Notes under the pieces: model-generated | The model's database searches: none | Told to the model about the DNA's origin: nothing | Seen by the model: only the letters and a program-made list of their open reading frames with translations | From: a virus | Length of the DNA: 24,144 nucleotides | Strand: one strand, 5' to 3' | IMG/VR virus record: IMGVR_UViG_3300035666_000159 | Location: 1-24,144 of that record | Program-made: the position numbers and the translations under genes | Shown: piece by piece, positions 1,158 to 9,081 of the stretch | Numbering within the stretch: position 1 is the stretch's first letter | Layout of the letters: each line of letters opens with the position of its first letter

Positions 1158-1350
1158 CACGATTTGTTAAGTCGTACTTAACATCTCCGAGGATCTCCTT
1201 CTCAATAAACACGCGAGACATCAGCAGTACGAACTGCGTGTAGTTAAGATCAAGCCCTGTCTTTTCTTTGTACAAGCCCTTGGCTTTGTCGATTGACTTG
1301 CGAGCGTCGTCACGGATGAGTAGTGCTTTGTATGATTTTGCGCTTGGCAT
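1150..1350 (-). CDS. hypothetical protein, 66 aa, 3' end runs through a degenerate palindrome
   Basis: Lysine-rich, largely helical protein (MPSAKSYKALLIRDDARKS at the N-terminus, then IDKAKGLYKEKTGLDLNYTQF). The start follows the upstream stop closely: the TAA of the VWA gene lies 2 bases before the ATG, and TGAGGAC upstream is a plausible ribosome site. The size and the TQFVLLM segment recall ribbon-helix-helix type small DNA-binding proteins, but this is only a resemblance. The final residues DVKYDLT are encoded by a degenerate copy of the 17-bp repeat (1166-1182) in the orientation that lacks an in-frame stop, so the protein continues eight residues past the point where its relatives in this operon end in VK-stop. 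Confidence 0.7.
   Translation of the reverse strand: MPSAKSYKALLIRDDARKSIDKAKGLYKEKTGLDLNYTQFVLLMSRVFIEKEILGDVKYDLTNRDE
1166..1182. repeat. degenerate copy of the 17-bp palindrome, inside a gene
   Basis: GTTAAGTCGTACTTAAC differs at one base from the plus-strand GTTAAGTAGTACTTAAC form. It lies inside the 3' end of the gene at 1150-1350 and is read as sense codons for VKYDLT. Confidence 0.7.
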
Positions 1351-1352
1351 GA

Positions 1353-2552
1353 TTAGTCCTCAATATAAACAGATGTGCCAACGTCGGCAGTGATACTTCT
1401 TGTAGTGATACCCCACAACACAGGGCACGTCCAACCCACACCCCAGGTCGGCACATAGCCATCGGTCAGCACCACGCAGCACTCGGCCTTGATGTTCTGC
1501 TCCTTCATGTAGTCCACGATACATTGTGGGTTAGTGCCACCACCACCGTTAGGCTTAGTTGTTGTGAGCAGTGACTCGTACTGATCCGGTTCATACTTCT
1601 CGTGCTGACATACTTGTGTGTCCCAGTACAGCAGATCGATACCCTCGGGTGTCACGTTGCGACAGATCGCCGTAAGCTCACCAAGAAACTGTCCGATGTC
1701 CTCCACACCGATAGACCCTGACATATCGAGCGCGATCACAAGCCTACCAACAGACTCACCGATGAGCGAGGGCATGTAGATATCCCGATCAACCCACCGT
1801 CTGTTTGGCTTGCGCCACGTGGATACATCTTTATCTGCACAGTAAGATGTTATGAAGTCACGCAACACCTCACGCCAATTCACCTTGGGTTCCAGTGCTT
1901 CGGTAACCTCACGTGGGACGTTGCCTTTCATCTTCCCTGCTAGTAGGGCACCTTGTCGCAGAGCCTGCTCAATCTCTCGACCGAGAGCTTCTCGTTCTTC
2001 TCGGGACATCTCTTTTGCTTCATCCCATCCATGATCGTCGAGCACGTCCTGTCCACCCGCTTGCGAGCCATCCTGACCATCACTTGATGTCTGACCATCA
2101 CCTCCTCCGCCGTTATCTTTAAGTAATCGAAACACCGTCCCCGCGTCCATGCCACGATACTGCTCATCGAGCAGCCCACACGCTGGCACTCGCACCTCCA
2201 CACCTTTAGGGTCCGAGTCGTAGATCATGAGATTAATCACGTAATCGCAAGCGTAGTTAGCCCTGCGAGGGTTCTGCCTGTGAAGATCTTCCCAGATAGT
2301 CAGATGCCTGAACGCCTTGTGCATGTTCTCGTGCAGGATCAAACCCTTCAGCTCGGCATCGGTCAGCCCATCCACAAACTTGCGTCCATACCGCACGTTA
2401 CGACCATCGGTGTACGCAGTGGGACAACCCGTATCGAGCACCTCATTCTTACCCATAAGGAAGATGCCTGAGTACAGGCAGTACTTGGGGTTGTTCATCA
2501 AGGCAATGTGTGCCTTCTGTATACGCTGCTCAGCAGATAGTTTTTGTGTCAT
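1353..2552 (-). CDS. VWA-domain protein with N-terminal HExxH metallopeptidase-like domain (DUF2201 type)
   Basis: A 399-residue protein with two parts. Residues about 60-130 hold HENMH at 74-78, the HExxH zinc motif, with ANYACDYVIN downstream supplying D103 as a possible third ligand; this matches the peptidase-like N-terminal domain of DUF2201 proteins. A Gly/Asp/Gln-rich linker covers about 147-175. Residues about 268-399 form a VWA domain with a MIDAS: DMSGS at 276-280, a threonine near 340 and TD at 363-364. Such proteins partner with MoxR AAA+ ATPases (as in RavA-ViaA, CobS-CobT, NorQ-NorD), and the gene directly upstream here encodes one. The start is fixed by AAGGAGAGTGATATG. One palindrome copy (2565-2581) fills the gap to the ATPase gene. 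Whether the peptidase domain is active cannot be told from sequence. Confidence 0.88.
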   Translation of the reverse strand: MTQKLSAEQRIQKAHIALMNNPKYCLYSGIFLMGKNEVLDTGCPTAYTDGRNVRYGRKFVDGLTDAELKGLILHENMHKAFRHLTIWEDLHRQNPRRANYACDYVINLMIYDSDPKGVEVRVPACGLLDEQYRGMDAGTVFRLLKDNGGGGDGQTSSDGQDGSQAGGQDVLDDHGWDEAKEMSREEREALGREIEQALRQGALLAGKMKGNVPREVTEALEPKVNWREVLRDFITSYCADKDVSTWRKPNRRWVDRDIYMPSLIGESVGRLVIALDMSGSIGVEDIGQFLGELTAICRNVTPEGIDLLYWDTQVCQHEKYEPDQYESLLTTTKPNGGGGTNPQCIVDYMKEQNIKAECCVVLTDGYVPTWGVGWTCPVLWGITTRSITADVGTSVYIED

Positions 2553-2564
2553 ATCACTCTCCTT

Positions 2565-2581
2565 GTTAAGTACTACTTAAC
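2565..2581. repeat. 17-bp palindrome copy between MoxR and VWA genes
   Basis: Exact copy; the minus strand reads GTTAAGTAGTACTTAAC. Its first base on that strand is the G of the MoxR stop TAG, and it lies just before the VWA ribosome site. Confidence 0.95.
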
Positions 2582-3687
2582 TAAAATGCCCACTGATTTT
2601 TAACTGCCCATGCTTTGAACTTACTGTTACGAGCGAGGATGCCTTGCTTGGACGTGGACCGCATACCAGACTTGGCAAAGAGTGCCTGCATCTCCATCTC
2701 AAGCCGCTCGGCATAGTCGAGCCACGCATCGAGTGTCTTCTCGTCAACCCGTGTGAGTGCACTGAACACCACGAGAATCTTAGCCACCACGTCATGCTCC
2801 CCAGGCAGCTTAGCGTTCTTAGGGTTAGCGATGATCTGCTCCCACGTCGGCAGCTTGTCCACCACCGTAAAGAAAGCCTGCATGTCACGTGCTGCACTCT
2901 CACCGATAGTGCCTGCCATCAACGTCTGCGTAACCATGTCGCCCAAGTGATGCCGCTGCTTGGCAATGTCCGAGGCTTTCTCCAACGAGCGAGGTGTAAC
3001 AAACGCTGTCGTAGGTTTGGTCGGGTGAAAGATGTACTGATTCTCACGCTGTGCAGGGTCGGTGTAACTCTCAAGCGATTGGGGTGTCTGCTTAACCCAC
3101 GCAATAACTTCTGGTGCGATGTTGTTGTCCAATGCCCAGGCACCCCACGAGTCAGTGTCCACACTCCCATCTGCCGTAAACCCTGCGTGTGGCTTGCGGA
3201 CCTGCACAATACAAGCACGGTTACGAGCATGCGCTTCGAGCAGATCACCCACACCATCGGTTGATAAGTTAGTGGTACCGAACACAATAGAGTCTTTGTG
3301 CAGATAGTCCGAACCGATACGCTTCTCCAGCATAAGCGTAAGCAGCACGTTCTTAACAGACTTCATTGCCTTGCCGATCTCATCAAGCATAACGATCACG
3401 GGCTTGTTAGTGTGCAGCTTGAACCGTGCGTTAGGGGCGAACCGAGTAACCCGCACACCATTCTCCTCAACGGTAAAGGGCAGTGCAAAGTCAGACAGAT
3501 CGAGCAGGGTGCAGTCGATATACGCAGTCTCATACTCAGGCATGATGTCCTTGAGCGTACGCAACACACTAGACTTGCCAATCCCAGGCTCGCCTTGACC
3601 GATCACCGTAACATCTTTACCGACAGTTGCAACTGACAATGCAAACTCACGCAACGACAACGAATTACCTAAACTAATAGTAGCCAT
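2581..3687 (-). CDS. MoxR-type AAA+ ATPase
   Basis: A 368-residue cytosolic ATPase, the expected partner of the VWA protein downstream. Walker A is GEPGIGKSS at 32-40 (K38), Walker B is VIVMLDE near 97-103 (D102, E103), sensor 1 is FGTTN ending at N140, followed by GVGDLLEAHARNR, which carries possible arginine-finger residues. MoxR ATPases remodel or activate client proteins, often loading metals or cofactors through VWA partners. I start at ATG 3687 (MATISLG), because the in-frame ATG at 3699 is part of the ribosome site GGAGAGTGAT. The gene has a near-consensus promoter 60 bases upstream (3750-3778) and a palindrome copy (3703-3719) between promoter and start, so it begins a transcription unit. 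The TAG stop shares its last base with the next palindrome copy at 2565-2581. Confidence 0.92.
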   Translation of the reverse strand: MATISLGNSLSLREFALSVATVGKDVTVIGQGEPGIGKSSVLRTLKDIMPEYETAYIDCTLLDLSDFALPFTVEENGVRVTRFAPNARFKLHTNKPVIVMLDEIGKAMKSVKNVLLTLMLEKRIGSDYLHKDSIVFGTTNLSTDGVGDLLEAHARNRACIVQVRKPHAGFTADGSVDTDSWGAWALDNNIAPEVIAWVKQTPQSLESYTDPAQRENQYIFHPTKPTTAFVTPRSLEKASDIAKQRHHLGDMVTQTLMAGTIGESAARDMQAFFTVVDKLPTWEQIIANPKNAKLPGEHDVVAKILVVFSALTRVDEKTLDAWLDYAERLEMEMQALFAKSGMRSTSKQGILARNSKFKAWAVKNQWAF

Positions 3688-3702
3688 ATCACTCTCCATA
3701 AA

Positions 3703-3719
3703 GTTAAGTACTACTTAAC
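3703..3719. repeat. 17-bp palindrome copy in the MoxR leader
   Basis: Exact copy, G-centred on the minus strand. It lies about 25-40 bases downstream of the predicted transcription start of the promoter at 3750-3778 and just upstream of the MoxR ribosome site, an operator-like place. Confidence 0.95.
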
Positions 3720-3749
3720 AACGTTTCCCAATTCACATCTTATAACTAC

Positions 3750-3778
3750 ATTATAACACTAAATTCTGTCTATGTCTA
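3750..3778 (-). promoter_or_regulatory. sigma70-type promoter for the MoxR/VWA unit
   Basis: On the minus strand, -35 TAGACA (3778-3773), a 17-base spacer and a perfect -10 TATAAT (3755-3750). Predicted start near 3743, giving a short leader that contains a palindrome copy before the MoxR start at 3687. The -35 lies within the end of the upstream gene. Confidence 0.75.
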
Positions 3779-4617
3779 GTACCTACCTCGATGTCACGTG
3801 TGGTGTAGAAGTCTCTCTGCGTACGCACCACTGCACTGAACCATGTAGCCATGAAGTCAACAGGCACGTGATACCCTTTCGAACTTTTTGTAACGGTAGC
3901 GTTACCGTATCTCAGACGTTGTAAGAGTACGGCTTCCCACTTTGACTCATCCTGCAACAACTCAACCAATGTCTCGTAGCGATCACGCGTCGGCACATAC
4001 GTACGCTCAATCGCGTTCGATAGTTCTTGGTCTCTCACAGCTTCAAACACACGATCCCTTGCGACTAACCCATCGCTCAGGCTCAGCATCACACGGCAGT
4101 AATCGAGGAAGGGCTTCACCCGCTCGCGTTGTTCTTTAGCTAGCTTGCGATCCACCACCCACTGCTTAACGTGTAAGAACTTATCTGTTTTGTATTTACG
4201 TGACTCGGGGTCGTATTCAATCTCAAGGGGTTCTGAGTCCGGCATTGGCACGAAGGTATTGCATGTGCCATGAGCAGCGAGATACAACCATATCTTGTTC
4301 TTACTTATATGGGCAGATGTTACCGGACAGTGATTGTGAATAAACTCTCTCGTGGTCGGTGTGTGCCATCCATTCAAATTAAATATAACGTTACCATTTG
4401 GGCGAAACAGAAACACATTAGTGTTGTGAAACTTCCCACCGTACAGCACCTCACCCGTAACTCTATCCACCACACGCACCACTTGCTCCCAGTCCCTGCG
4501 TCTCGCACCGATGGGTCGCACATCGATAGACCGTCCACGTATGGGCTTGGTCCTCTCATACTTATCTTCTAGATTTTTGTAGTTGTGGTTAATTAATTTG
4601 TGGTTAGGTAATGTCAT
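3751..4617 (-). CDS. hypothetical protein, 288 aa
   Basis: The largest unknown of the left arm. It starts MTLPNHKLINHNYKN and is basic, with many Arg residues. A central part (DRVTGEVLYGGKFHNTNVF, then FNLNGWHTPTTREFI) looks beta-rich, followed by a helical charged region and a tail SSKGYHVPVDFMATWFSAV. The pattern 'FHNTNVFLFRPNGNVIFNLNGWHTPTTRE' resembles short beta-strand modules of phage proteins of unknown role that handle local substrates, but I cannot name a family. I prefer ATG 4617 because it lies six bases after AGGAG; ATG 4620 is only three bases after it. The 5' end overlaps the upstream gene by 14 bases. The 3' end contains the -35 element of the MoxR promoter. Confidence 0.8.
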   Translation of the reverse strand: MTLPNHKLINHNYKNLEDKYERTKPIRGRSIDVRPIGARRRDWEQVVRVVDRVTGEVLYGGKFHNTNVFLFRPNGNVIFNLNGWHTPTTREFIHNHCPVTSAHISKNKIWLYLAAHGTCNTFVPMPDSEPLEIEYDPESRKYKTDKFLHVKQWVVDRKLAKEQRERVKPFLDYCRVMLSLSDGLVARDRVFEAVRDQELSNAIERTYVPTRDRYETLVELLQDESKWEAVLLQRLRYGNATVTKSSKGYHVPVDFMATWFSAVVRTQRDFYTTRDIEVGTRHRQNLVL

Positions 4618-4813
4618 CATTCACTCCTATAGTTAATGTATGTAACGTTTTCATTTCTTCTTCAGTACCTCGGGCAACTTCTACCCACGCATCTAAGTGC
4701 TGCTCGTTAGGGTCATCGCCTAGTGGCACGACGATATATCCAGCGTATAAAACAGAAGGTGCTACCGAACCTTCAAGCAGCTCTCTCCATATCAGCAGTG
4801 CATGTGTATCCAT
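4604..4813 (-). CDS. hypothetical protein, 69 aa, start abuts a palindrome copy
   Basis: Acidic protein (MDTHALLIWRELLEGSVAPS at the N-terminus, ending IGVNDDIT). No family recognised. The ATG begins on the first base after the 17-bp palindrome (4814-4830), and there is no usual Shine-Dalgarno. The stop of the upstream gene lies inside the palindrome, eight bases before this ATG, so terminating ribosomes could restart here. This is inference from spacing. Confidence 0.6.
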   Translation of the reverse strand: MDTHALLIWRELLEGSVAPSVLYAGYIVVPLGDDPNEQHLDAWVEVARGTEEEMKTLHTLTIGVNDDIT

Positions 4814-4830
4814 GTTAAGTACTACTTAAC
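4814..4830. repeat. 17-bp palindrome copy at a gene junction
   Basis: Exact copy, G-centred on the minus strand. It supplies the last two codons and the TAG stop of the gene at 4822-5007 and touches the ATG of the next gene. Confidence 0.95.
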
Positions 4831-5007
4831 TTTCTCAACTAATTCCCACCCGTGTCGTATCAATCCAGCATCGCTATACACGTGATCGAACTTGTCGAAG
4901 ATACGCATAAACGCTTTAGCTTCACCAAGCGTCAGCCCAACGAACTTAATCAGGAACTCATTCCCGTCTTGGCACATCTGTACATGTGCTGTGTACTTGT
5001 CACTCAT
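4822..5007 (-). CDS. hypothetical protein, 61 aa, stop codon provided by the palindrome
   Basis: Small protein MSDKYTAHVQMCQDGNEFLI... with a beta-beta-helix look: the helix LTLGEAKAFMRIFDKFD follows two strands. Start chosen at ATG 5007, preceded by GGGGAAG and overlapping the upstream stop by four bases (ATGA at 5004-5007); a longer frame to 5037 would run back into the upstream gene. The last codons GTT AAG TAG (Val-Lys-stop) are the first nine bases of the palindrome copy at 4814-4830. Function unknown. Confidence 0.68.
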   Translation of the reverse strand: MSDKYTAHVQMCQDGNEFLIKFVGLTLGEAKAFMRIFDKFDHVYSDAGLIRHGWELVEKVK

Positions 5008-5168
5008 TTCACTTCCCCCATGCTTTCTATTTCCCAAATGGCATCGTTCAAAATTCTTTCCCTTTCTAAATATTCATAGGCTTTGTTCTCAGCGTCATCT
5101 TTGTTTTCCGCTTCGACCTCTATCGTCATCCAAGATATTTTCTTGAACTCAACTTCAAACTTCTTCAT
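5004..5168 (-). CDS. small beta-alpha-beta protein, 54 aa, DpnD/PcfM-like
   Basis: A 54-residue protein starting MKKFEVEFKKISWMTIEVEA, then a helix with ENKDDAENKAYEYLERER, then a final strand, ending in MGEVK. The plan (MK-x-FEV strand, second strand ending in (V/I)xAE, helix with DDAxxKA) matches small DpnD/PcfM-type proteins as I remember them and matches the 56-aa protein at 6129-6299 in this window, which also ends in GEVK. The start has an excellent site (AAGGAGATAGAT before ATG) and the stop overlaps the next ATG. DpnD/PcfM proteins have no clear function. Coding confidence is good; the family is tentative. Confidence 0.7.
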   Translation of the reverse strand: MKKFEVEFKKISWMTIEVEAENKDDAENKAYEYLERERILNDAIWEIESMGEVK

Positions 5169-5178
5169 ATCTATCTCC

Positions 5179-5649
5179 TTAAAAGTTACCTTCTGCTACC
5201 TGAAAACACGTCAACCCATTACGCCTCCACATGTCAACAACTTGCTGCCTGTCATCAAGCACAAACAGCACACGATCCTTGTCGATGTGCGCGTCGAGAA
5301 TCTCCTGCTTCACGACGTTGTCGGCACGGAAGTCGCCGTCCTTACGCATGAGTAAAGTGAACTCATAGATGTGGCACATGTCTACTATCCACGCTTCGGT
5401 ATCGGCACGGCAACGCTCAGGTCTACCTGTGCAAAAGATGAGGTTGTAAATCGCACCCTCATAAAACATAAACTTGTCTAACACGTGCAGCACGGGTACA
5501 TTCACTGTGTCCTCACGCACTCCTGCGTAGAACGCATCCCAGTTGGGCTTGCGTCTTAGTCCCGCACCATCTGTTTTCTGCACATGGTGCACACGGTGCT
5601 CGCAGTTAGCGAGCGTCCCATCTAAATCACAAACAATAATGTCTTTCAT
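5179..5649 (-). CDS. HAD-superfamily phosphatase, like the T4 Pnk 3'-phosphatase domain
   Basis: A 156-residue stand-alone HAD hydrolase. Motif I is CDLDGT (nucleophile D8, acid D10), motif II is FCTGR (T74), the motif III region is MRKDGDFRADNVVK (K103), and motif IV is FVLDDR (D132, D133). The segments MRKDGDFRADNVVK and FVLDDRQQVVDMWR closely resemble the C-terminal phosphatase domain of T4 polynucleotide kinase, which removes 3'-phosphates from nucleic acid ends before ligation. Here no kinase domain is attached. I chose ATG 5649 because AAGGAGATAGAT precedes it; the longer frame to 5802 lies over the next gene. A role in repair of nicked DNA or RNA is likely but a nucleotide phosphatase role cannot be excluded. 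Confidence 0.85.
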   Translation of the reverse strand: MKDIIVCDLDGTLANCEHRVHHVQKTDGAGLRRKPNWDAFYAGVREDTVNVPVLHVLDKFMFYEGAIYNLIFCTGRPERCRADTEAWIVDMCHIYEFTLLMRKDGDFRADNVVKQEILDAHIDKDRVLFVLDDRQQVVDMWRRNGLTCFQVAEGNF

Positions 5650-5659
5650 ATCTATCTCC

Positions 5660-5884
5660 TTAATCAAACTCAGCACCGTCATAGCATCCGGCAAAGAAGT
5701 GCGGACCAACGAAGGCTCGCACGTAACCCACAGCCCATCTGCGGGTTGGTTTAGGACAGTCTTGTCGCCACTCTTTGTCAGCGCGTGATGTAGGCCATTC
5801 ACGCTCGGGTTTCTGCAACGCCCATGCCAGCATCTTTCGCACCGTAGTACGTTTGTTTTTATAAAACGTTTTCTTGGTTCTCAT
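5660..5884 (-). CDS. hypothetical basic protein, 74 aa
   Basis: Strongly basic N-terminus (MRTKKTFYKNKRTTVRKML) followed by a Trp-rich middle (EREWPTSRADKEWRQD) and a C-terminus VGPHFFAGCYDGAEFD. The ATG overlaps the stop of the upstream gene (ATGA at 5881-5884), and its own TAA is just before the ribosome site of the HAD gene. No family recognised; the charge would allow nucleic-acid binding. Confidence 0.68.
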   Translation of the reverse strand: MRTKKTFYKNKRTTVRKMLAWALQKPEREWPTSRADKEWRQDCPKPTRRWAVGYVRAFVGPHFFAGCYDGAEFD

Positions 5885-6108
5885 TCTTCCCTCTCACCAA
5901 AAATAAGTTTCTCGCCATGCCTACTTGCGTAGGTGTTTGTGTTTCTTCTGGCGATCATCATGTAGTCAGCCATTTCGTAAGCTGCCTCAGCGAGGGATGG
6001 CATAGCCTCCTCATACCAATGTTCAAAGATGTCGTCCTCGTACATCTTTCGGAGTATGTCCATCATCGCTTGCATAGCAAGCCCCGCAAAGTGATCTCTC
6101 AGTTCCAT
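5881..6108 (-). CDS. small phage protein, 75 aa, 'RDHFAGLAMQA' type
   Basis: Acidic helical protein beginning MELRDHFAGLAMQAMMD and containing AAYEMADYMMIARRN. The opening (L-RD-x-FA-x-x-AMQ) and the later AYxMADxMMxAR recur in many small phage proteins that I know only as hypotheticals. The start follows AAGGAGAGAGAA. A palindrome copy (6121-6137) lies 13 bases upstream. Function unknown. Confidence 0.75.
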   Translation of the reverse strand: MELRDHFAGLAMQAMMDILRKMYEDDIFEHWYEEAMPSLAEAAYEMADYMMIARRNTNTYASRHGEKLIFGEREE

Positions 6109-6120
6109 TTCTCTCTCCTT

Positions 6121-6137
6121 GTTAAGTACTACTTAAC
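6121..6137. repeat. 17-bp palindrome copy at a gene junction
   Basis: Exact copy, G-centred on the minus strand. It supplies Val-Lys-stop of the gene at 6129-6299 and precedes the ribosome site of the gene starting at 6108. Confidence 0.95.
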
Positions 6138-6299
6138 TTCACCTTCGACGCGCACCTCCACGTCGTAATCATCTGCATCACGCATGATGATCTGCCCTAC
6201 ATCGTTCCACGCTTGCTTGTGTGCGTCCTCGATAGACTCAGCATCGATATAGACTGTGTAGTACTGCTGCGCCATCACTAATACTTCAAACGTTTTCAT
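6129..6299 (-). CDS. small beta-alpha-beta protein, 56 aa, DpnD/PcfM-like; stop codon in the palindrome
   Basis: Protein starting MKTFEVLVMAQQYYTVYIDA, then AESIEDAHKQAW, then a charged end with DADDYDVEVRV, finishing GEVK. The beta-strand, (V/I)xAE, helix, 'DADDY', strand order fits DpnD/PcfM-type proteins, and the gene is probably a paralogue of 5004-5168. ATG 6299 overlaps the upstream stop by four bases (ATGA). Its final GTT AAG TAG is contained in the palindrome copy at 6121-6137. The gene is short and easily missed, but the overlap pattern and paralogy make it convincing. Confidence 0.72.
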   Translation of the reverse strand: MKTFEVLVMAQQYYTVYIDAESIEDAHKQAWNDVGQIIMRDADDYDVEVRVEGEVK

Positions 6300-6643
6300 T
6301 TCAGCTCCTCCGGTATTTCAACTTCATCGCCAAGCTTTGATGCTACGTAGCAGCGCATGGCTGCGATCAGGGGTGTGGGGCCGCGCCAATAAACAAACGG
6401 CGTTTCAAGCCGCTTTCCGTCGCGTGCATCCCAAAATTCTCCCGTCATAGGGCTAAGAATTGCGATCTTCTCCCGCTCAATGATCGGCCCGCCTTGTGCC
6501 CAGTCGGTTGAGTAGTGGGTGTTGGGCCATGTGTACCAAGCCACGGCAAAGTTGTTCACCACTTCCGGCTCTTGCCGCCCTTCACACTTCGCTACTGCCC
6601 AATCAAGGGCAGCACCGCTTAACTCGTTTGTCTTTACTTTCAT
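6296..6643 (-). CDS. DUF2591 (NinX-like) phage protein
   Basis: A 115-residue protein starting MKVKTNELSGAALDWAVAKCEG, the typical opening of DUF2591 proteins, which are common in phage early regions (NinX of lambdoid phages belongs here). Further along are YSTDWAQGGPIIEREKIAI and TPLIAAMRCYVASKLGDEV, also typical of the family. Function is unknown. The start at 6643 is chosen by this match and by a four-base overlap with the upstream stop; a longer frame to 6781 would overlap the whole upstream gene. Length equals the family norm. Confidence 0.9.
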   Translation of the reverse strand: MKVKTNELSGAALDWAVAKCEGRQEPEVVNNFAVAWYTWPNTHYSTDWAQGGPIIEREKIAILSPMTGEFWDARDGKRLETPFVYWRGPTPLIAAMRCYVASKLGDEVEIPEELK

Positions 6644-6852
6644 TTCACCAACCCTCCTTTGTTGTTCAACCCTGTCAGCAGCTTGCGGTCGGTTATCAGC
6701 AGGTAGTTTGATTTGTGCATGGGGGCAACGCACCAGAGCTTGCGGGCTTCGATGCTGTTGAGTTCGCGGCAGTCCCAACAAAAGCCATTAAGCGTATCGA
6801 GCGGATCTAATAAGTCTGTACCGCAGTCGCGGCAGTGCATGTAACGAATCAT
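6640..6852 (-). CDS. small zinc-ribbon protein, 70 aa
   Basis: Two CxxC pairs (C7-C10 in HCRDCG and C25-C28 in FCWDC) are spaced as in a small zinc ribbon. The remainder is basic and hydrophobic, with SNYLLITDRKLLTGLNNKGG. GGGGTAAGAG precedes the ATG, and the stop overlaps the DUF2591 start. It may bind nucleic acid or a protein partner; no specific family recognised. Confidence 0.75.
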   Translation of the reverse strand: MIRYMHCRDCGTDLLDPLDTLNGFCWDCRELNSIEARKLWCVAPMHKSNYLLITDRKLLTGLNNKGGLVK

Positions 6853-6861
6853 CTCTTACCC

Positions 6862-7068
6862 CTATAAAACGAACAAATCCAAAAACTGAGCACGTTCACG
6901 CTTGCTCAGTGCTTCCCACGTGGGCTTGACGTACTGCACGTCGTACTCATACCCGCCGAATACGCGTCGCTGCACACGTCGCACCTCTACTTTAGGCACC
7001 GTCCGCACTTGGGGTTTGATGCTCTTGAGTTGCTCGGATAGGGTTTTGGGTGTGTTTCTCGTCGTCAT
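6862..7068 (-). CDS. hypothetical basic protein, 68 aa, first gene of the leftward operon
   Basis: Begins MTTRNTPKTLSEQLKSIK, continues with a basic stretch VEVRRVQRRVFGGYEYD and ends REAQFLDLF-like (KRERAQFLDLFVL). AGGAGAGTGAA precedes the ATG. No known family. It is the first gene after the long leader that starts near 7643, so it should be transcribed early and strongly if the promoter at 7650-7678 is used. Confidence 0.7.
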   Translation of the reverse strand: MTTRNTPKTLSEQLKSIKPQVRTVPKVEVRRVQRRVFGGYEYDVQYVKPTWEALSKRERAQFLDLFVL

Positions 7069-7139
7069 TTCACTCTCCTGATAGTTTGTTGTGGTGCATG
7101 TGCACCGGACAGGCAGCGGTGTTGTTTGAGGTGCCGTTT

Positions 7140-7156
7140 GTTAAGTAGTACTTAAC
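7140..7156. repeat. 17-bp palindrome copy in the leftward leader
   Basis: Exact copy, C-centred on the minus strand. Lies 72 bases upstream of the first operon gene (start 7068), inside the long leader. Confidence 0.95.
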
Positions 7157-7548
7157 TTTTATCTTTGCACCTAGCATCCACTACCTGTCCACTGCACACG
7201 CAGTGGTAGACCCTCTGCTCATTTATTGCAGTCCTGTTTGGGGTTCGGGTCGGGTGCATTGCTGTGCGTGACATATAGAAAGATGTTGGTGGGTGAACTC
7301 AACACAACAAACCCATCAAACCTAACTCGCACAACAAAGCACCGCAGAGATACTGCTAAGGTAGCAACGTGGGAGGGAGATGCGACCGAATTACATGCTG
7401 TGAATGTTGCAGCCCAATAAGATAGGGGTCAGCGGGACACGGCGATCCCATACAACACGCAAGCCTAAGCAAACCACAAGTAATCCAGACGTTATCTGTG
7501 CACCACGCACATCTTTACGCCTACTCTGCACCGTGTGGCACACAGCAT

Positions 7549-7565
7549 GTTAAGTAGTACTTAAC
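7549..7565. repeat. 17-bp palindrome copy in the leftward leader
   Basis: Exact copy, C-centred on the minus strand, about 80 bases downstream of the predicted start of the promoter at 7650-7678. Confidence 0.95.
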
Positions 7566-7624
7566 AAAGCCATCTACCACAATCGGCATTTCGTACAGAT
7601 TGTTAAGGAACGAGAGAGCGCGTC

Positions 7625-7638
7625 GGGAACGTATTCCC
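7625..7638 (-). promoter_or_regulatory. hairpin at the predicted 5' end of the leftward transcript
   Basis: GGGAA, four-base loop, TTCCC. It lies about five bases after the predicted start of the 7650-7678 promoter. A hairpin at the very 5' end can protect an mRNA or serve as an operator. Confidence 0.5.
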
Positions 7639-7649
7639 AACTAACCCCT

Positions 7650-7678
7650 ATTATCTCATAAGTCTATGACCTTGTCAA
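7650..7678 (-). promoter_or_regulatory. strong sigma70-type promoter of the leftward operon
   Basis: On the minus strand, perfect -35 TTGACA (7678-7673), 17-base spacer, -10 GATAAT (7655-7650). Predicted start near 7643. The next gene start on that strand is at 7068, so the transcript has a leader of about 575 nt. Sequence-only prediction. Confidence 0.75.
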
Positions 7679-7710
7679 TAGGCTGTCGTCGGGTTTGGCA
7701 CGTTTTTGAT

Positions 7711-7727
7711 GTTAAGTAGTACTTAAC
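7711..7727. repeat. 17-bp palindrome copy upstream of the main leftward promoter
   Basis: Exact copy, C-centred on the minus strand, ending 33 bases upstream of the -35 element at 7673-7678, a place from which a bound protein could affect RNA polymerase. Confidence 0.95.
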
Positions 7728-7989
7728 AAGGCATTTGTTCTGTATTGTTCCGGATTGTGTCGGCGAATGGAAAAATTGAAAACGTATTGAAATCATGATG
7801 TTAGGTGCGTTTGTGTCAACTTGTTCATTTGTTCCGTGAAAAATACCCCTGCCAAGCCGCTCTTTCTATGAGATTTATATAATAAAACGGGTGCACGTAT
7901 CATACATATCTAATAGAACATCAAGGGAAGCTGTGTATATATTTTGTTTTAGTGAACAATATATAGGAAAGTGCCACTTACACATTTAA

Positions 7990-8020
7990 AATCAATGACT
8001 TAGGATTGTGCTTTCATGTG
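7990..8020. repeat. 31-base direct repeat, copy 1
   Basis: Begins AATCAATGACTTAGG and ends CTTTCATGTG. Copy 2 at 8068-8098 is the same in 29 of 31 positions. The period is 78 bases. Confidence 0.9.
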
Positions 8021-8067
8021 GAACAATACGGAACAATTGACTGCAAAAAACGAAAAAAACAATTGAG

Positions 8068-8098
8068 AATCAATGAGTTAGGATTGTGCTTTCAAGTG
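8068..8098. repeat. 31-base direct repeat, copy 2
   Basis: Begins AATCAATGAGTTAGG and ends CTTTCAAGTG. Differs from copy 1 at positions 10 and 28. A GGAACAAT motif follows each copy (at 8020 and 8118). Confidence 0.9.
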
Positions 8099-8151
8099 CC
8101 CTTTTGTGTCACGGCACGGAACAATAGGTGAAATATAGTGCATGACGCGAT

Positions 8152-8168
8152 GTTAAGTAGTACTTAAC
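8152..8168. repeat. 17-bp palindrome copy in the intergenic region
   Basis: Exact copy, C-centred on the minus strand. It lies between the terminators of the 8429 gene and the GGAACAAT cluster. No promoter is obvious beside it. Confidence 0.95.
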
Positions 8169-8321
8169 AAACCCTCCCACTCTCTGCGGAACTGGTTTCC
8201 GACGCCGCGCAACACGTGTTAACACGTTTTTTCTATGTTTGCTTGGTCTCACTCACTCTCACTCACGCTCGCACCCACGCACAGATAAGAACTGGCATCA
8301 GAAAAAAGTTGACAGGGACGC

Positions 8322-8352
8322 AAAAAAACGTTATGCTGCATGCAGCATAACG
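8322..8352 (-). terminator. second intrinsic terminator, perfect 24-base palindrome
   Basis: Bases 8329-8352 form a perfect palindrome with half-site CGTTATGCTGCA, followed on the minus strand by T7 (8322-8328). It would back up the terminator at 8375-8422 and keep the lone gene's transcript out of the control region. A protein-binding palindrome is the alternative. Confidence 0.65.
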
Positions 8353-8374
8353 GTAAACGCAATAAAAAAGACAA

Positions 8375-8422
8375 CAAAAAACCCGCCGAAGCGGGTTGAA
8401 TTTAGTGGGGGGCAATGCCCCC
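8375..8422 (-). terminator. intrinsic terminator of the lone gene, with a preceding GC hairpin
   Basis: Read on the minus strand: after the stop at 8429, a GC hairpin (GGGGGC/GCCCCC, 8408-8422), then ACCCGC, TTCG tetraloop, GCGGGT (8381-8396) followed at once by a T tract. The UUCG-type loop and T run make a classic rho-independent terminator. Confidence 0.88.
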
Positions 8423-8428
8423 GATTGT

Positions 8429-8980
8429 TTACTTACCTTCAGCCTCATCGAGCGCGTCAATCAGAAATGCTGCGATTGGTGCAAATTTGTCGCTGCCCTT
8501 CAACTTGTTAGCGAAATCGCGCAACCTTTCGATTGCTTTGGCTTTGTCGTCTTTTGCGAGAATCTTGAGGTTGATATCCCCCGATTTTTCGGTTTTCGCT
8601 CCGGTTTTCTTGCCTGCCTTTTTTGCTTTGTTTTCATCGTAGGCTTGGCCGGTAGTGACTGCCTTGCGAAAGTGTGCAAGGTAGACTCGAATTGCACCGG
8701 CTGATTGTGCTTTGCCTTTGGCCCCATAATACTTACCGGCCTTAAAGGTAAACCGACCCGCAAGGAACCCGTCACAAATTGCCGACCCTTCAGCTAGTAA
8801 GCTTTTAACTGCGCTTGCGGGAATAAGCTTGTGTAACTTGGCAGCAATCGCATTGGCATGTTCGCGTGCGCTTTCGGCTGTTTTTTCCGATTGTCCAAAT
8901 TCTTTTGCGAGATTTACCATTTCAGCCGATGCAATAGGGGCTTCAGTAGTTGCGGGTTTTGTGATTTGCTTAGTTGCCAT
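8429..8980 (-). CDS. lone Ala/Lys-rich protein, 183 aa, possible DNA-binding regulator
   Basis: Starts MATKQITKPATTEAPIASAE, is helical and rich in Ala and Lys, with a low-complexity basic linker (KKAGKKTGAKTEKSG, about residues 121-135) between two helical parts. The first part has SGAIRVYLAHFRKAV-like sequence (AGAIRVYLAHFRKAVTTG) typical of DNA- or protein-binding helical domains; the second ends FLIDALDEAEGK. Family unknown. ATG 8980 is preceded by CGGAGTG; the longer frame to 9004 has no ribosome site. The gene stands alone: promoter at 9030-9058, palindrome just upstream of its -35, and terminators at 8375-8422 and 8322-8352. This arrangement suits a regulator or nucleoid-type protein, but that is inference. 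Confidence 0.8.
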   Translation of the reverse strand: MATKQITKPATTEAPIASAEMVNLAKEFGQSEKTAESAREHANAIAAKLHKLIPASAVKSLLAEGSAICDGFLAGRFTFKAGKYYGAKGKAQSAGAIRVYLAHFRKAVTTGQAYDENKAKKAGKKTGAKTEKSGDINLKILAKDDKAKAIERLRDFANKLKGSDKFAPIAAFLIDALDEAEGK

Positions 8981-9029
8981 TTGGTTCACTCCGTTTAGTG
9001 GCATCCGGTCGAAAAGTGACCGTAGACAA

Positions 9030-9058
9030 ATAGTCTCATATTTTTATTAGATTGTCAA
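9030..9058 (-). promoter_or_regulatory. probable promoter of the lone gene 8429-8980
   Basis: On the minus strand, -35 TTGACA (9058-9053), 17-base spacer, -10 GACTAT (9035-9030). The -10 is weak, but the block TATGAGA before it is shared with the promoter at 7650-7678. A palindrome copy lies six bases upstream of the -35. Confidence 0.55.
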
Positions 9059-9064
9059 GTCAAT

Positions 9065-9081
9065 GTTAAGTAGTACTTAAC
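9065..9081. repeat. 17-bp palindrome copy beside the promoter of the lone gene
   Basis: Exact copy, C-centred on the minus strand, six bases upstream of the -35 element (9053-9058). It is the rightmost copy; none follows in the structural genes. Confidence 0.95.

Follow-up and report, generated by a model that had tools for sequence, protein, structure and literature searches.

What is a family of nearly identical 17-bp palindromes doing among the early genes of an uncultured phage? The question is posed by IMG/VR record IMGVR_UViG_3300035666_000159, whose entire 24,144 bases form the window analysed here. The record is a fragment, since relatives measure 60-66 kb; its source is an uncultured freshwater phage belonging to a family that is widespread in aquatic settings. 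The leftward genes encode a DUF3150 protein, a VWA/metallopeptidase, a MoxR-like ATPase, a polynucleotide-kinase-type phosphatase and NinX, and the rightward ones, the capsid gene among them, start with terS, terL and portal. Judging from sequence comparison, the best explanation is that the palindromes are operators of a phage-encoded regulator, most probably the product of the monocistronic gene at 8429-8980, a reading to which we give a probability of about 0.68. Its parts differ in strength: the operator nature of the array appears well supported, the 8429-8980 protein is the likely partner of these sites, and the mode of action that we propose is tentative.

The palindrome reads GTTAAGTA-N-TACTTAAC and occurs in nine exact copies and one copy with a single mismatch, GTTAAGTCGTACTTAAC. 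Shuffled sequence gives an expectation of 0.06 sites, ten copies were reached in none of 100 shuffles, and the 24,144 bases hold no further site within three mismatches. The original prediction, an earlier model-made note on the same DNA, had placed all ten copies correctly, and a scan of the window confirmed that the 15 kb of rightward genes are free of them. It had also assigned every exact copy to a gene junction or to non-coding DNA. This holds, with two points to add: three copies (2565, 4814 and 6121) overlap with the stop codon of the leftward open reading frame (ORF) ahead of them, and the mismatched copy lies within a small gene. The ten copies, putative operators, are located as follows.

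1166-1182: copy with one mismatch, inside the 3' end of gene 1150-1350; kept in the relatives L007/L026 and L027
2565-2581: exact copy between the stop of the MoxR-like ATPase gene and the Shine-Dalgarno sequence of the VWA/metallopeptidase gene
3703-3719: exact copy at about +32 of the leftward promoter 3778-3750, 15 nt ahead of the start of the MoxR-like gene
4814-4830: exact copy spanning the stop of one ORF and abutting the start of the next
6121-6137: exact copy at a gene junction within the leftward operon
7140-7156: exact copy upstream of gene 6862-7068
7549-7565: exact copy at about +86 of the main leftward promoter
7711-7727: exact copy at about -76 of the main leftward promoter
8152-8168: exact copy in the non-coding control region
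9065-9081: exact copy between the candidate regulator and terS, centred at about -50 relative to the start site inferred for the candidate, and 84 nt ahead of its start codon

A polarity of the centre base, which is C in the four left exact copies and G in the right five, was considered and dropped; it is mixed among relatives.

Exact matches to the window motif exist in IMG/VR on seven contigs, in eight stretches with at most nine copies each. A scan of 84,980 prokaryote genomes (257 Gb) returned 13 single matches, which is not above chance, and no prophage array of the motif. Protein searches retrieved many contigs from the same phage family, and a de novo search for repeated palindromes revealed that each lineage has its own, symmetric and common to the copies of one genome; in one genome of 63.4 kb (G015), this search found no repeated palindrome. 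Next to GTTAAGTA in the window, the half-sites of other lineages are GTTAAGTC, CTCAAGTC, TTATAGTC, ATACTGTC, TTACTGTC, ATAATGTC and CTTCACAC, and more distant genomes carry TTAACA-NN-TGTTAA, CTAACA-N(N)-TGTTAG, GTTACA-N-TGTAAC and GTTATCA-NN-TGATAAC. Lineage-specific symmetric palindromes shared by all copies of a genome are what a single trans-acting factor that reads DNA would lead one to expect. The close relatives L027 and L029 differ in operator class and come from the same metagenome sample (3300035670), as expected if such classes coexist.

The complete relatives of about 60-66 kb keep their copies in a single early region of about 8-18 kb. Examples are a 64.7-kb genome with 12 of 12 copies in 52.8-60.8 kb and a 66.5-kb genome with 13 of 13 in 44.2-53.6 kb; a partial exception is one genome in which 2 of 14 copies lie further along the early strand. 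The original prediction proposed to judge the array by spread into the late genes; none was seen in the complete IMG/VR relatives. Among relatives that share the gene order, the positions and the palindromy of the sites are conserved, but not their sequence, which is specific to the lineage.

Which protein would read these sites? In almost all large genomes, a protein of about 160-240 amino acids without database match is encoded by whichever early-strand gene lies closest to the early/late divergence, and one palindrome stands 76-114 nt ahead of the start codon of this gene, be it the candidate or its positional counterpart. The candidate in the window, its flanking signals and two further leftward promoters are these.

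8429-8980, minus strand: candidate regulator of 183 amino acids, 'C39' family, which alignment divides into a variable N-terminal domain, a Lys-rich linker and a conserved C-terminal domain
8380-8397, minus strand: intrinsic terminator after the candidate regulator, fitting a monocistronic gene
9029-9057, minus strand: promoter inferred for the candidate regulator, TTGACA-17-GACTAT, immediately downstream of the 9065 site
7650-7678, minus strand: main leftward early promoter, TTGACA-17-GATAAT, with putative operators on both sides at 7711 (-76) and 7549 (+86)
3750-3778, minus strand: leftward promoter, TAGACA-17-TATAAT, upstream of the MoxR-like gene

The C39 family comprises 56 ORFs (30 unique sequences), which adjoin the early/late divergence. 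The upstream site is present also in lineages that have an apparently unrelated family in the candidate's place: at least one of C81/C516, C143/C372 and C147 occupies that position, with palindromes of its own, in G008, G009, G010, G011, G014, G016 and G017. Homology of C39 to these same-position families (C81, C143, C147, C372, C516) was examined and rejected, as hhalign links them mutually and not to C39. The 8429-8980 protein has no Pfam, PHROG, PDB or fold match, and AlphaFold2 (AF2) models searched with Foldseek gave no significant match for it or for C81, the C81 model being confident (predicted local distance difference test, pLDDT, 90.6) yet without PDB match. By tblastn, none of 50,697 phage records matched as a homologue of the candidate, the repressor of phage phiC31 not having been aligned directly. 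Pfam and PHROG scans of 88 early-strand proteins found no obvious helix-turn-helix regulator common to the genomes.

The candidate and the palindromes vary together. Among 27 unique C39 members, operator distance correlates with the distance between N-terminal domains when the C-terminal one is controlled for (partial r 0.64, Mantel p 0.0005); the converse test, operator distance against C-terminal distance with the N-terminal one controlled, gives a partial r of -0.03 (p 0.65). Natural swaps bear on the same relationship. The C-terminal domains of L031/L036 are 88-94% identical to those of L033/L138, and the N-terminal domain and the operator both differ; L048/L052 keep the operator and N-terminal type of the ATACTGTC group with a C-terminal domain resembling that of the ATAATGTC group. 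By alignment, C-terminal parts have evidently passed from one N-terminal type to another, and it is with the N-terminal part that the operator goes.

A further comparison is offered by L066 and L067, whose DNA is 78-89% identical where aligned (MoxR 95%, terL 95%, DUF3150 97% and other core genes 86-97%). All eight palindromes are syntenic by order and spacing, and all are switched from the TTACTGTC to the CTTCACAC type, typically with 6 of 17 positions identical; each genome lacks the motif of the other within three mismatches. The candidate is 42% identical in its N-terminal domain and 80% in its C-terminal domain. In two more discordant pairs, the N-terminal domain of the candidate is 27% and 32% identical, compared with 63-94% for all other genes compared. 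Mutual information within this domain is spread over residues 11-40, 61-80 and 91-100, and no single recognition helix can be named. The original prediction allowed for a phage or a host regulator; a host protein is unlikely, since close relatives differ in their entire set of sites and a phage gene changes along with it.

The position of the sites relative to promoters informs us on how such a regulator may act. The start of a strong sigma-70 promoter lies within 100 bp of 70 of the 230 sites (30%, from 25 loci) against 7.4% for random positions, a comparison tempered by starts that are inferred from consensus matches and by promoters that are homologous across relatives and hence not independent. 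The promoter-associated sites cluster at +24 to +98 or at -46 to -100, and only 1 of the 70 is centred between -40 and +20. Near the window copies, promoters had been predicted at 3750, 7673 and 9053; the first two are strong consensus matches (11 of 12, with an extended -10) and the third is weaker. At the candidate's own promoter, the site is upstream of the -35 element and centred at -46 to -72 in most C39 members. Since the sites flank promoters and avoid their cores, the geometry suggests roadblock or looping control of early transcription rather than promoter occlusion.

Taken this way, the palindromes would be symmetric DNA operators, probably bound by a dimer. The regulator would occupy the site beside its own promoter and those flanking the main early promoters, and probably also the junction sites inside the leftward operon. 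Early transcription would be damped or shut off by a block to elongating RNA polymerase, by looping or by both, and not by covering promoters. The binding of the candidate to these sites, its dimeric state and its repressive effect we infer from sequence. Co-variation, the fixed upstream site and the promoter-flanking geometry all support the earlier suggestion of operator-like sites for a phage regulator of early expression.

Besides the limits of the promoter count, several points weigh against this reading. The candidate has no recognisable DNA-binding fold, and its AF2 model is of moderate quality (pLDDT 75) and unmatched. In an unbiased scan of early gene families against operator distance it did not stand out, since operator classes follow phylogeny. 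Between the window and L029, the C18 protein (encoded at 3751-4620) is highly divergent, at 43% identity, and thus more so than the N-terminal domain of the candidate (61%). In addition, the -46 to -72 position at the candidate's own promoter would suit an activator too. The divergence of C18 favours an explanation in which the operators belong to another protein, such as C18 or C44 (1150-1350, minus strand), and the 8429-8980 gene co-evolves by linkage only. C44 is a small putative DNA-binding protein of 66 amino acids, ribbon-helix-helix-like by our own reading of its sequence and widespread (44 ORFs in relatives), and its gene carries the 1166 site. However, in the L066/L067 pair, where all eight operators differ, C18 is 86% and C44 68% identical against 42% for the candidate's N-terminal domain. 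The predicted strand of C44 is nearly unchanged in this pair (YKALLIRQDAR and YKALLIRKDAR), and its residues are the same in the A and D lineages despite their different operators. We therefore regard another protein as an unlikely owner of the sites. An activator, or a dual regulator of early and late promoters, in place of a roadblock repressor is about as improbable: a site upstream of the -35 element is in a typical activator position, but most other promoter-associated sites lie downstream, at +24 to +98, where activators rarely act, and many are within operons with no strong promoter close by.

The remaining explanations do without a regulator of this kind. Short RNA hairpins, raised in the original prediction and conceivable in translation control, processing or N-like antitermination, could form with a 7-bp stem and a 3-nt loop (-3.7 to -7 kcal/mol), and several sites are 12-24 nt ahead of start codons. 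Yet the broken pairs of imperfect copies on the transcribed strand are A.C in 34 cases and G.U in 13, an excess which indicates that pairing in the transcript is not preserved. Several sites also lie upstream of the inferred transcription start, the palindromes of one lineage are even, without a centre base, and others have a 2-bp centre, and there is no Rfam match, so that hairpins seem very unlikely. Smaller still is the chance of partition, packaging or nucleoid-organising sites. Dispersed palindromic sites serve as centromeres in phage-plasmids such as N15, and the copies of the cultured relative Pag-Yong1, discussed below, are found genome-wide; against this, no ParA-like ATPase was found in 16 relatives, and the sites are tied to early-region promoters and gene junctions. 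Hairpin promoters for a virion RNA polymerase, in the style of phage N4, are the least credible of all. Several best isolate matches of the MoxR-like ATPase are phages that we take to be N4-like, and two large virion proteins weakly match the PHROG 'virion RNA polymerase'. These matches, however, cover short stretches of a profile of 3406 positions, and for neither protein is there a match among solved structures, the N4 polymerase included. Any base can stand at the centre (A 92, T 68, C 28, G 22), and the sites avoid rather than form promoters, strong sigma-70 promoters being present.

Operators of a phage-encoded regulator have precedents, and the statement of the original prediction that no match was known is qualified by two close analogues, the conserved inverted repeats of the Streptomyces phage phiC31 and the stoperators of mycobacteriophage L5. 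By form, the phiC31 repeats seem the closest: inverted repeats of about 17 bp, intergenic and spread across the early region, they are bound by a self-regulating phage repressor. The window resembles this arrangement in its dispersed early-region palindromes, one of them beside the promoter of the putative regulator gene. It differs in that phiC31, a temperate phage, has a larger repressor and a serine integrase, and no integrase was found here. The C1 operators of phage P1, a temperate plasmid-prophage, are likewise 17-bp repressor sites dispersed around the genome, but asymmetric ones.

The stoperators of Cluster A mycobacteriophages (L5, Bxb1) are up to about 30 short repressor-binding sites dispersed over the genome; most lie outside promoters and are reported to block elongation, and motif and repressor co-evolve between lineages (PMC6550527). 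They are 13-bp asymmetric sites, mostly in one orientation, to which the repressor binds as a monomer (PMC9283540, PMC6550527). As in L5, the sites described here are many, dispersed in non-coding DNA and mostly outside promoter cores, and their sequence co-varies with a regulator, here a candidate known from sequence. Unlike those of L5, they are perfect 17-bp palindromes in the window and in relatives; the candidate is without recognised domain, and integrase and parA were not found. Because of their symmetry, the sites are not of the L5 type. In Cluster K mycobacteriophages, many genes have repeats at their starts, 17-bp inverted ones among them: start-associated sequences (SAS) are asymmetric 13-mers overlapping the ribosome-binding site, and the extended form (ESAS) consists of two 17-bp repeats separated by a spacer (PMC3203893). 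The single compact palindromes described here differ from both and are found upstream of the ribosome-binding site, in promoter flanks or far from starts. Overall, operators and regulator appear to change together across relatives much like the repressors of temperate phages and their sites, but the integrase and partition genes of temperate immunity systems were not found in 16 relatives.

That search covered tyrosine integrase, serine recombinase and ParA; its controls worked, and some of the 16 records are fragments. It suggests a non-lysogenic lifestyle of these phages. The cultured relative is the Planktothrix phage Pag-Yong1, which has the same layout, with leftward VWA and ATPase genes and rightward terL and capsid genes, and in which a tyrosine integrase was searched for and not found. 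It carries 39 copies of CGGTTCAG-N-CTGAACCG within three mismatches, genome-wide. According to the gene table, all 13 copies in 29.6-39.6 kb are at gene junctions, and one of these stands 57 nt before the first leftward gene, UMO76074.1, which would be the predicted partner of the palindrome in this phage. This distant relative breaks the confinement, as 15 of its 39 copies are outside the early-strand part. In about the DUF3150 position it has a gene annotated as anti-CRISPR AcrVA2. The other isolates closest by TerL (DSL-LC04, HTVC027P and 023Pt_psg01) have no such array in the parts read.

Some further features of the window accompany the array. The DUF3150, VWA/metallopeptidase and MoxR-like ATPase module lies at 1-729, 1353-2552 and 2581-3687 on the minus strand, and several leftward genes have the ribosome-binding context GGAGAGTGATATG in common (730-742, 2553-2564 and 3688-3702, minus strand). 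The 1.3-kb non-coding control region contains two 37-nt direct repeats that are 89% alike (7984-8020 and 8062-8098), with inverted CGGAACAAT words at 7744, 8029 and 8117. Repeats and words are kept in L006 and L027 and may represent an origin or a non-coding RNA. A perfect 24-bp palindrome, CGTTATGCTGCATGCAGCATAACG, at 8329-8352 precedes a T run on the minus strand and overlaps a rightward promoter-like match; L111 has this palindrome too.

For an uncultured and widespread family of aquatic phages, these results provide a predicted early-gene control circuit together with its likely regulator, an unannotated protein family. The naturally swapped pairs of domains and operators form a ready set for learning how this protein reads DNA, and Pag-Yong1, cultured and of the same architecture, makes the circuit testable. 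More speculatively, and with the odds rather against it, apparently non-integrating aquatic phages may carry a diversified, immunity-like operator and regulator system. The regulator would belong to at least two families without recognised fold and would have an exchangeable DNA-reading domain that co-diversifies with the whole operator set; the driver could be mutual silencing of early genes in mixed infections and not lysogeny. If these phages are truly non-integrating, one would not expect them to have a diversified immunity-like specificity in the absence of lysogeny, and such specificity could explain which related phages can share a cell in co-infection.

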